Positions 1,938 to 4,455 of a stretch of DNA of 64,000 nt are shown piece by piece. Origin of the DNA: Colwellia sp. Arc7-635 (GTDB lineage Bacteria; Pseudomonadota; Gammaproteobacteria; Enterobacterales; Alteromonadaceae); contig NZ_CP034660.1 in assembly GCF_003971255.1 (NCBI RefSeq), forward strand, positions 186,001 to 250,000, given 5' to 3'. Positions within the stretch are counted from its first letter, which is position 1. The number at the start of each line of letters is the position of its first letter. Under the pieces are notes generated by a model. The model was not told where the DNA came from. It worked only from the letters and a program-made list of their open reading frames with translations, and did no database searches. A program made the position numbers and the translations under genes.

Positions 1938-2190
1938 TTCGTTATTCTAGGTAATTCATTGGGCAGCTATAGTAACCGCTAGCAATACAAATTCAAGTAA
2001 AGTGTTAAGCATGCATGGTAGCTATCACTTTTATATTTTCGTATGACTAAAATGAATTAAGCAGATGTTTGACTGTGTGCTCAAGTGACCATTATTAATG
2101 GGATGGATATCACTTTTACGCTTTTTTAATATTATTCTCATCATTTCAATTTAATTTAACCCCATTTATCTTATTGCATCGTTTTACTTA

Positions 2191-2456
2191 TATACCCAAG
2201 CCACTTGAAGATGCAGGATTCAGCAAATCGAGAAAGGGTTAGCACCAAGGCATTGATTGAAGAGAATGGTTGTTCCATTGTCGAAATCAATAACGCCGGA
2301 GATGACCCTTTATCGGCTTGCCCGAAGGGAGCTAAGCTAGAAAACCAGCTCCGCGTTGCAGCACTTGATAAGGGAATAACCATTGTCTTCGTGCTGCGCC
2401 TTGATCTGATTTCCTAGCTTAGCTCTGAAACGGCATCTGCAAGTGGTTTGGGTATA
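2191..2456. repeat. MITE-like palindromic element with 24-bp terminal inverted repeats
   Basis: The ends are 24-base inverted repeats (2191-2214 and 2433-2456) with two mismatches: the left reads TATACCCAAGCCACTTGAAG and on to ATGC, and the right is its complement. Inside, more arms pair: about 2242-2275 with 2373-2405 (AAGGC, GAAGA and AATGGTT-TTCC blocks complementary in the same order), and GAGCTAAGCTAGAAAA with TTTCCTAGCTTAGCTC. Almost the whole 266 bases can therefore fold back on itself. The 70-codon open frames inside it on both strands look like by-products of the palindrome. No transposase is present, so it would be non-autonomous. It fills most of the 611-base gap between 1937 and 2549. 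Confidence 0.7.
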
Positions 2457-2548: not shown

Positions 2549-3157
2549 ATGAAAAAAGTAATAACGATAACTATGCTAGCGAGTGCAACAACATTTGGTT
2601 TATTCGCATTTATGTCTTATTTAGTGAGTAATGATCAAGTATTGCCACCAGAAATATTACCTGATGTGATTGTTGAGGTAGCACAATTGCAAGAAGAAAA
2701 GCCTGCAAAAGTGATTACGCGATTTACAAATGTGCCACCGCCAATGCCTAAACCTATGCCGAGAACATTTGAAACCATAGTAGAAACTAATGTTGAAGGT
2801 GGTTATGATTATGAAAGTCCTGTTATTAACCTTAATAATGACGGACCAAGTTTAACCTTGGGTAACAATACTCGTGATAACGATGCACGTCCTGTTGTTC
2901 GCATCAATCCAAAATACCCCATAGATGCAGCACGTGATGGCACGGAAGGTTGGGTGAAATTACGTTTTGATATTAATGCCTTAGGTAGCGTGACTAACAT
3001 TGAAGTTATTGACGCCCAGCCGAAACGGGTATTTAATAAAGCGGCTAGACAAGCGCTAAAAAAATGGAAATATCGTGCTAAATCAACAGCAGGCAAGACA
3101 GTGGCACAACAAGGTTTGACCGTGCAGCTAGATTTTAATATCGATCAACAAAGTTAG
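2549..3157 (+). CDS. TonB family protein (first of two flanking an ECF sigma gene)
   Basis: A 202-residue protein with one N-terminal membrane segment (about 5-27), a short Pro-rich stretch (PPPMPKPMP, about 64-72) and a C-terminal TonB domain (about 115-200: RINPKYP, DGTEGWVKLRF and ALKKWKY). The topology matches an energy transducer anchored in the inner membrane. The Pro-rich spacer is much shorter than in classical TonB, so reaching outer-membrane receptors is uncertain. No exbB or exbD lies nearby. GAGGAA precedes the ATG. The next gene starts ten bases after the stop, so the three genes 2549-4455 are probably one operon. Confidence 0.8.
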   Translation: MKKVITITMLASATTFGLFAFMSYLVSNDQVLPPEILPDVIVEVAQLQEEKPAKVITRFTNVPPPMPKPMPRTFETIVETNVEGGYDYESPVINLNNDGPSLTLGNNTRDNDARPVVRINPKYPIDAARDGTEGWVKLRFDINALGSVTNIEVIDAQPKRVFNKAARQALKKWKYRAKSTAGKTVAQQGLTVQLDFNIDQQS

Positions 3158-3166
3158 GACAACAAT

Positions 3167-3745
3167 TTGCAGTTACCCTCAATGATCAAAGGTTGGTATA
3201 ACCCAAAAGCCAGTCCAGAAAGGTTACTGACAAATTATATGGCAACCGGTAAAAACAAGTATTTGTCTTTGCTGGTTGCGCAATTTAATTTGTCGTTATA
3301 TCACTACTTATTGAGCCAATCGAATAAAGAACTGGCAGAAGATGTGGTACAAACGACCTGGTTGAAAGTAATGAAAATAACTAAGCATAGTGACTCTGGT
3401 ATTAGCCAACAAACTAATGTTAAAAGTTGGTTATTTACCATTGCCCGTAATACCTTGATTGATGAATTTCGTCGTCAGAAAAAATGGCAAAGTCAGTTGT
3501 TAGATGAAAATAAAATGCTGACCGCAAGCCTGGAAAAATCAATACAAGCGTCGAGTAGATTAACGCAATTTAATGCGGCGCTAGCACAATTACCTTTTTT
3601 ACAGAGAGAGGCTTTTATTTTCCAGCAGGAAGGTTTTTCTGTGTTAGAAATCTCGGCATTAACCGACGACAGCTTTGAAACCATTAAAAGTCGTTTACGT
3701 TATGCCCGTAATAATTTAAGCCATTTGTTAGGAACCCCATCATGA
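3167..3745 (+). CDS. ECF-type RNA polymerase sigma factor
   Basis: A 192-residue protein with the two-domain layout of group 4 sigma factors. Region 2 spans about 45-105 (EDVVQTTWLKVMK, then SWLFTIARNTLIDEFRR, the -10 recognition and core-binding part). Region 4 spans about 135-190 (LAQLPFLQREAFIFQQEGFS, then a helix-turn-helix with ETIKSRLRYAR). I used the TTG at 3167 because AGGA (3156-3159) lies seven bases before it; the ATG at 3182 has no such site. Its stop overlaps the next start (ATGA), indicating translational coupling to a TonB-like protein with an anti-sigma-like N-terminus. The trigger and regulon are unknown. Confidence 0.85.
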   Translation: MQLPSMIKGWYNPKASPERLLTNYMATGKNKYLSLLVAQFNLSLYHYLLSQSNKELAEDVVQTTWLKVMKITKHSDSGISQQTNVKSWLFTIARNTLIDEFRRQKKWQSQLLDENKMLTASLEKSIQASSRLTQFNAALAQLPFLQREAFIFQQEGFSVLEISALTDDSFETIKSRLRYARNNLSHLLGTPS

Positions 3746-4455
3746 GTGCCGATAAATTTGATAATGAGCTCTCTGATCTTTATCAGCAAAGAAAGCAACA
3801 AACCCAAGCGCCAACATTTGCGGGTGAACAAGCTGTTAGACCAGTTAAATCAATACGTTCGCCATGGCATATCTTAGCCTTATTGATGACCGGAGGAGCT
3901 GCATCTTTTGGCATTATGGCGCTGGTAACACATTTTGCTAAACCGCCAGTACATGGCGTTAGTGAGCAATACAAAGAGCATTCAGTACGGATAGTTGAGC
4001 TAAATGAAGTTAGCACCAAAGAGCTGGTCATATCCCCAACTAAGCCACCATTACCGCCTAAACCAACAAGTACAGCTCCTGAACTTTCAAATAATAGTCG
4101 TTTAAGCCAAGCAGAACTTACACCCGCTCAACCAGCGTTATCGATTAATCAGGCCTTAAGTCATACGGTCAACGTACCGAAAATAAACCAACCGGTTATT
4201 GCTCTAGCTCCTACTCATCGTGTTATGCCGGTCTACCCAAAGTCGGCGCTATATACGCGTAAATCAGGGACGGTAAAATTACAGTATCGAATTTCGAATG
4301 AAGGTAAAGTGATTGATATTACAGGGCTTAATCAACATGGCGACCGATTATTAGAACGTTCAGCTAAACAAGCATTAAGTCAATGGCGTTATCCTGAAGA
4401 AAGTGGCAGTGATCAGTTATTGGAAGTTGAATTTGAGTTCAACTTAGCACAATAA
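3742..4455 (+). CDS. membrane protein with anti-sigma-like N-terminus and C-terminal TonB domain
   Basis: A 237-residue single-pass protein. Residues 1-45 are cytoplasmic and start with FDNELSDLYQQRK, which resembles the first helix of many anti-sigma factors (ELxxLYxxx). A membrane segment follows (about 47-67), then a Pro-rich spacer (PTKPPLPPKP, about 93-103) and a TonB domain (about 150-236: RVMPVYPKSALYTRKSGTVK and LSQWRYPEE). It overlaps the sigma gene by four bases. Family knowledge says an ECF sigma is usually followed by its membrane anti-sigma. I infer that this protein holds the sigma and carries a TonB-like periplasmic sensor. A plain TonB paralogue is the alternative. Confidence 0.7.
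   Translation: MSADKFDNELSDLYQQRKQQTQAPTFAGEQAVRPVKSIRSPWHILALLMTGGAASFGIMALVTHFAKPPVHGVSEQYKEHSVRIVELNEVSTKELVISPTKPPLPPKPTSTAPELSNNSRLSQAELTPAQPALSINQALSHTVNVPKINQPVIALAPTHRVMPVYPKSALYTRKSGTVKLQYRISNEGKVIDITGLNQHGDRLLERSAKQALSQWRYPEESGSDQLLEVEFEFNLAQ

Follow-up and report, generated by a model that had tools for sequence, protein, structure and literature searches.

Cell-surface signalling of the FecIR or FoxI-FoxR type is composed of a TonB-dependent transducer, a FecR-like anti-sigma factor and an ECF sigma factor (PMC11637429). In PUMA3 of Pseudomonas aeruginosa (VreA-VreI-VreR), ECF sigma signalling involves a TonB/TolA-like domain, but this domain is carried by VreA, a separate periplasmic receptor-like protein, and not by the anti-sigma factor (PMC2729926). 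HasB of Serratia marcescens, a TonB paralogue, is not linked to exbBD, and a sigma/anti-sigma cascade controls its operon; this operon is Fur-regulated and works for a single receptor, and a TonB domain on the anti-sigma is not described there (PMC3602595). In CnrY-CnrH, the class II anti-sigma domain is short, cytoplasmic and followed by a single membrane helix (PMC8103513, PMC12153292). A TonB on an anti-sigma factor was not described in the open-access literature searched, and priority is uncertain. The matching of scarce TonB to the dozens of TonB-dependent receptors of bacteria is poorly understood.

The locus presented here belongs to Colwellia sp. Arc7-635 and was analysed in a window of 64,000 nucleotides (NZ_CP034660.1, positions 186,001 to 250,000), to which all coordinates refer. 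It consists of a tonB gene, an ECF sigma factor gene and a second gene with a TonB domain. Similarly to FecIR and FoxI-FoxR, it combines an ECF sigma with a putative single-pass anti-sigma and a likely link to TonB-dependent receptors. Unlike them, the putative anti-sigma carries a TonB domain and no FecR domain, and what the conserved operon provides is a TonB and not a receptor. A TonB/TolA-like domain within ECF sigma signalling is shared with PUMA3, a TonB paralogue unlinked to exbBD in a sigma/anti-sigma operon with HasB, and the short cytoplasmic segment with CnrY, whose periplasmic part is different. In Pseudoalteromonas, Rheinheimera, Alteromonas and others, sister operons share the promoter, the tonB, the sigma and the anti-sigma domain with this locus, whereas the periplasmic sensor there is unrelated and has two invariant cysteines.

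Organization of the Operon

The first gene (2549-3157, + strand) encodes TonB1, an energy transducer similar to Vibrio TonB2 (Pfam TonB_C, 1.1e-17). After a gap of 9 bases follows the sigma factor gene (3167-3745, +; TTG start, 192 aa), which has regions 2 and 4 only, as expected of an ECF sigma, with both Sigma70_r2 (4.7e-11) and Sigma70_r4_2 (5.7e-7) above the Pfam cut-off. The third gene (3742-4455, +) overlaps it by 4 bases (ATGA) and encodes the second TonB protein, TonB2, a member of the TonB family by its above-cut-off TonB_C match (PF03544, 2.4e-12). The first-pass annotation, made from the sequence alone, had described this tightly spaced trio with its four-base overlap; its coordinates are correct and the Pfam domains agree. 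The sigma apparently starts with TTG (window 3167), as do most TonB-tailed relatives when read in the same way, and an ATG located a few codons further in is a possible alternative start.

TonB2 is divided into four parts. Residues 1-40 (3742-3861, +), with the motif LYQQRK..AP, are the putative anti-sigma domain, assigned by homology with the N-termini of the sister anti-sigmas. Residues 41-65 (3862-3936, +) form the single membrane helix, which is of TonB type (ASFGIMAL), is helical in the AlphaFold2 model and marks the start of the alignment with the TonB1 profile. The proline-rich periplasmic linker (residues 66-155; 3937-4206, +) is of low confidence and unstructured in the model. The C-terminal TonB domain (residues 156-237 plus stop; 4207-4455, +) is recognized by both Pfam TonB_C and Foldseek, with a block-mean pLDDT of 83-95 from residue 161 on. 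Its top Foldseek matches are 2gsk (BtuB:TonB, 6.9e-6) and 6i97 (FoxA:TonB, 7.3e-6). Judging from these comparisons, TonB2 is a complete TonB from the membrane helix onward. The architecture proposed in the first-pass annotation (cytoplasmic part, one membrane helix, periplasmic TonB domain) is thus recovered, with a cytoplasmic part of about 40 residues.

A MITE-like repeat of 266 bp (2191-2456, no strand assigned) with terminal inverted repeats TATACCCAA[G/A]CCACTTG is located between the promoter and tonB. The genome has 135 matching repeat ends, among them those at 2191-2207 and 2440-2456, and this number suggests some 60 or more copies of the element. The distance from promoter to ATG is 395 in the window vs. 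116-157 in the closest relatives, and the element is absent at the same place in those checked. It is outside the conserved system and extends the operon leader to about 360 bases.

Conservation and Distribution

Sigma homologues were found in 105 of the 197 genomes of the same family (41 of 52 genera). The neighbourhoods of 81 loci (80 fetched plus the window) were compared, and a scan of named genomes with the sigma alignment gave 80 named loci. The tonB gene is directly upstream of the sigma in 81/81 and in 78/80 loci, respectively, so the trio is not a chance arrangement. The gene after the sigma is on the same strand in every locus, mostly with an overlap of 4-14 bases; its product is a TonB_C protein in 25 of the 81 loci and a single-pass membrane protein without TonB_C in the other 56. 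Among the named loci, 77 of 80 have an identified downstream type together with the upstream tonB and the promoter (27 TonB-tailed, 50 other). The TonB-tailed form occurs in Colwellia, Cognaticolwellia, Thalassotalea, Thalassomonas, Litorilituus and Pseudocolwellia, and the non-TonB form in Pseudoalteromonas, Rheinheimera, Psychrosphaera, Alishewanella, Alkalimonas, Bowmanella, Alteromonas and a few Thalassotalea. A survey of gene order in related genomes had been suggested with the first-pass annotation; the trio order recurs in the 25 loci and in named genomes, and is conserved across Colwelliaceae-type bacteria.

Genes for receptors lie within 6 kb of the trio in only 6 of the 81 loci, and exbD was near it in none. 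The CusCBA-like genes at 9.4-15.5 kb of the window are not regular neighbours of the trio across loci. An operon linked to a receptor or to copper was therefore rejected, as the trio alone is conserved among the neighbours. Three loci with non-TonB anti-sigmas (L058, L068 and L081) have two tandem tonB-like genes 5' of the sigma, and five TonB-tailed loci (L044, L045, L051, L052 and L053) have a gene for a SIMPL-like (DUF541-like) secreted protein 3' of the trio.

Promoter and Predicted Regulon

An ECF-type promoter, ATTTAACCCC-N16-CGTT, is located at 2154-2191 (+), with a -35-like element at 2156-2163 and a -10-like element at 2180-2183, and is the predicted target of the trio's own sigma. 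Elements with AAC at -35 and CGT at -10 are typical of ECF promoters. In a count of gapped words 5' of tonB, ACCCC-N16-CGTT was found in 52 of the 81 loci, compared with 6 at most after shuffling. Once refined, the motif consists of TTTAACCCC-TTT and, 16 bases past the last C, CGTT (TTTAACCCC..CGTT). It precedes tonB in 80/81 loci at a single fixed spacing, with 79 sites above the build threshold; in the sole exception (L099), the motif is present with a one-base shift. The window promoter has a PWM score of 36.4 vs. a shuffled maximum of 6.0 bits in 810.

With at most one mismatch, the strict pattern has a single site in the 4.74-Mb genome of the window, at the trio. Of 73 exact sites across the 197 family genomes, 58 are at the tonB-sigma operon and 15 are elsewhere, seven of the latter in genomes without a detected sigma. 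With so few sites, a wide sigma regulon was rejected; the distribution is as expected for an autoregulated sigma with very few targets. Given the conserved ECF-type promoter upstream, the operon is very probably autoregulated. As the only genomic site of this promoter is at the trio, the operon looks like a self-contained loop with a TonB as the main output, TonB1 being the predicted cargo. Both the conserved autoregulatory promoter and this predicted output of TonB1 go beyond the first-pass annotation.

A few sites have other neighbours. In two loci of one genus (L172, site 1584; L173, site 1567), an exact site is found just 5' of a similar gene of about 370 aa, lipoprotein-like and with an aspartyl-protease-like start, which is a possible second sigma target. 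In L174, an extra site (1402) is placed 5' of an ExbD-like fragment (ORF 1894-2217) adjoining an apparent TonB-dependent receptor. In one genome (L168, 1817-2275), the promoter is immediately followed by an apparent remnant of a non-TonB anti-sigma, with tonB and the sigma missing.

The N-Terminal Domain of TonB2

The LYQQRK-type motif recurs across the TonB-tailed proteins, and the segment LYQQRK..AP is common to the N-termini of TonB-tailed and non-TonB downstream proteins. A profile of the non-TonB N-termini finds 25/25 TonB-tailed N-termini at 21-35.5 bits (maximum of 1000 shuffled copies, 10.3) and does not match the upstream TonBs. In profile-profile comparisons, the TonB-tailed family proved a mosaic: its N-terminus and helix aligned with the non-TonB family (E 1.7e-10), and its stretch from the helix to the C-terminus with TonB1 (E 2.3e-32); the non-TonB family and TonB1 showed no similarity to each other. 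For the helix, the TonB-tailed proteins scored a median of 6.8 bits against TonB1, compared with -0.65 for the sister helix and 0.9 for shuffled helices, with overlapping individual values.

The first-pass annotation had named a separate conventional anti-sigma elsewhere as one finding that would speak against its proposal. A search of the whole genome with the full non-TonB profile gave a single match, the N-terminus of TonB2 (E 1.5e-8), so no displaced conventional copy of this family is found and that candidate was rejected. In the AlphaFold2 model, a helix spans residues 3-20 of the domain. The sister anti-sigma model has only helices 3-27 and 32-44 in this region, in comparison with the class II domains of CnrY and NepR; by sequence, the domain had no match at E up to 10 among solved chains, CnrY included.

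The gene directly after the sigma thus encodes a protein with N-terminal homology to the sister operons, and TonB2 is very probably the cognate membrane anti-sigma of the trio sigma. Its position, the overlap and general ECF practice point to inhibition of the sigma by the N-terminal domain. FecR domains are absent from the trio proteins (TonB2 shows TonB_C only, at E up to 1), in line with the earlier view of a system without a FecR-like protein, and a FecR-like regulator was rejected.

The Sensor of the Sister Anti-Sigmas

The non-TonB downstream proteins (56 loci) are single-pass proteins of 188-256 aa, with L097 reading as 101 aa. Their periplasmic domain is unrelated to TonB; it comprises one long helix and a small beta fold, and two of its cysteines are invariant. 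Four members tested against Pfam gave no family over the cut-off, and none was FecR-like. The sensor is represented by L110:5379-5978 and 47 aligned relatives, and its model has a mean pLDDT of 84.6. The fold has no match in the PDB below 1e-3; the weak best matches include N-domains of proteasome ATPases and IF-1 (OB folds).

Origin of the TonB Tail

With 28 class-level relatives as the root, the sigma tree places the TonB-tailed loci in one clade (100/96), nested among operons with the other sensor. Similarly, the tails are one group (99/99) with long branches in the tree of TonB domains. According to the rooted sigma tree, the TonB tail is a derived character gained once. Class-level relatives with readable neighbours have a non-TonB membrane protein after the sigma and often a YfbK/von Willebrand-like protein before it. 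Within the family too, in two loci of one genus (L166, 2195-4030; L167, 4264-6084), a YfbK/von Willebrand lipoprotein replaces tonB under the same promoter. From the rooted tree, these neighbours and these two loci, the likely order of gains is a sigma with a membrane anti-sigma, then tonB as cargo, and then a single joining of TonB to the anti-sigma.

The match of the profile to the N-terminus only, the complete TonB behind it and the single origin indicate that an anti-sigma gained a TonB sensor. The proposal of the first-pass annotation, an anti-sigma whose sensor was replaced by TonB, is in this way strengthened: sister operons carry the same N-terminus on a non-TonB protein at the same position, the genome has no other copy of the family, and the rooted tree indicates a single derived gain.

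Discussion

Comparison across loci supports the domain make-up of TonB2, its N-terminal homology, its single derived origin, the predicted autoregulatory promoter and the near-absence of other sites. In the proposed mechanism, the ECF sigma would transcribe the trio as one operon from the dedicated promoter 5' of tonB1. Residues 1-40 of TonB2 would tether the sigma to the membrane, and the remainder of the protein (helix, periplasm-spanning linker and receptor-binding domain) would be the sensor. Most likely, when energised or ligand-loaded TonB-dependent receptors exceed the available TonB1, their TonB boxes would engage the TonB2 domain. Pull or occupancy on TonB2, probably followed by regulated proteolysis, would free the sigma, which would then raise TonB1, sigma and anti-sigma until the demand for TonB is met. 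We infer four of these points: the binding of the sigma to residues 1-40, the role of receptor engagement as signal, the proteolytic step and feedback as the purpose of the loop. With such hedges, the combined explanation of an autoregulated operon, a TonB-tailed anti-sigma and receptor engagement seems reasonably probable.

Receptor engagement as the signal read by TonB2, the second half of the first-pass proposal, is a tentative element, with a little less than an even chance. More doubtful, but possible, is a regulator of TonB supply and demand, in which TonB2 would compete with the working TonB for receptors and free a sigma aimed essentially only at the TonB operon. The genome of the window has 39 plug-domain, 10 TonB_C and 6 ExbD matches; many receptors are thus to be served and TonB demand could well be limiting. 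A TonB-shaped anti-sigma would be suited to sampling this demand, and the resemblance of the modelled TonB2 fold to receptor-bound TonB counts in favour of the explanation.

The tail evolves much faster than TonB1, with a mean identity of 0.35 vs. 0.63 over the TonB domain, and has partly lost the conserved YP and N/Q positions. In detail, the position before the conserved P, which is N/Q in TonB, is mostly Met or Leu; aligned by eye, we take it to be that of Q160 in E. coli TonB (R-N-Q-P in E. coli, RxNPxY in TonB1). The region around Q160 in E. coli TonB touches TonB boxes, so the TonB2 tail may not bind ordinary ones. This loss, the fast divergence and the scarcity of receptors within 6 kb (the 6 of 81 loci above) argue against a simple receptor reading, and the tail could be specialised for certain receptors only, for TonB1 or for some different partner.

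The same divergence and lost positions speak for a tail that is blind to TonB boxes, in an anti-sigma that would read some other periplasmic input, e.g. direct pairing with TonB1, envelope stress or a protease, as the sister sensor presumably does; the sister operons, with the same TonB-producing design, also run with an unrelated sensor. However, the 25 loci retain the fold, the last strand (F-x-F) and an invariant Trp and Gly, the best Foldseek matches are TonBs complexed with receptors, and an entire TonB with helix and linker was acquired, beyond a mere fold. A blind tail is thus considered unlikely, if still a serious contender.

From its complete TonB architecture and TonB-type membrane helix, TonB2 could also be taken for an ordinary second energy transducer, with an N-terminal segment that is a leftover or regulates something else. 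This is very improbable: the N-terminal motif is conserved in TonB-tailed loci while the TonB domain drifts, the genome has no other anti-sigma of the family, and translational overlap with the sigma is found in nearly all loci. FecR-type systems can have a sigma that depends on its membrane regulator for activity, and the N-terminal segment might likewise be needed for sigma activity beyond inhibiting it, but with neither TonB2 nor the four tested sister proteins FecR-like in Pfam, this is also very improbable.

The explanation by a TonB-tailed anti-sigma engaged by receptors has wider consequences. If the tail reads receptor engagement, the operon would provide a genetically encoded readout of how much TonB is needed, and cell-surface signalling could bypass both the FecR domain and the signalling domain of the receptor. 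The two operon forms offer a natural paired comparison, in which one promoter, tonB, sigma and anti-sigma domain are combined with a TonB tail in Colwelliaceae and with another sensor in Pseudoalteromonas, Rheinheimera and others. With a TonB-tailed anti-sigma in an operon that makes TonB, these marine bacteria may gauge their demand for the TonB that powers nutrient uptake through the outer membrane.
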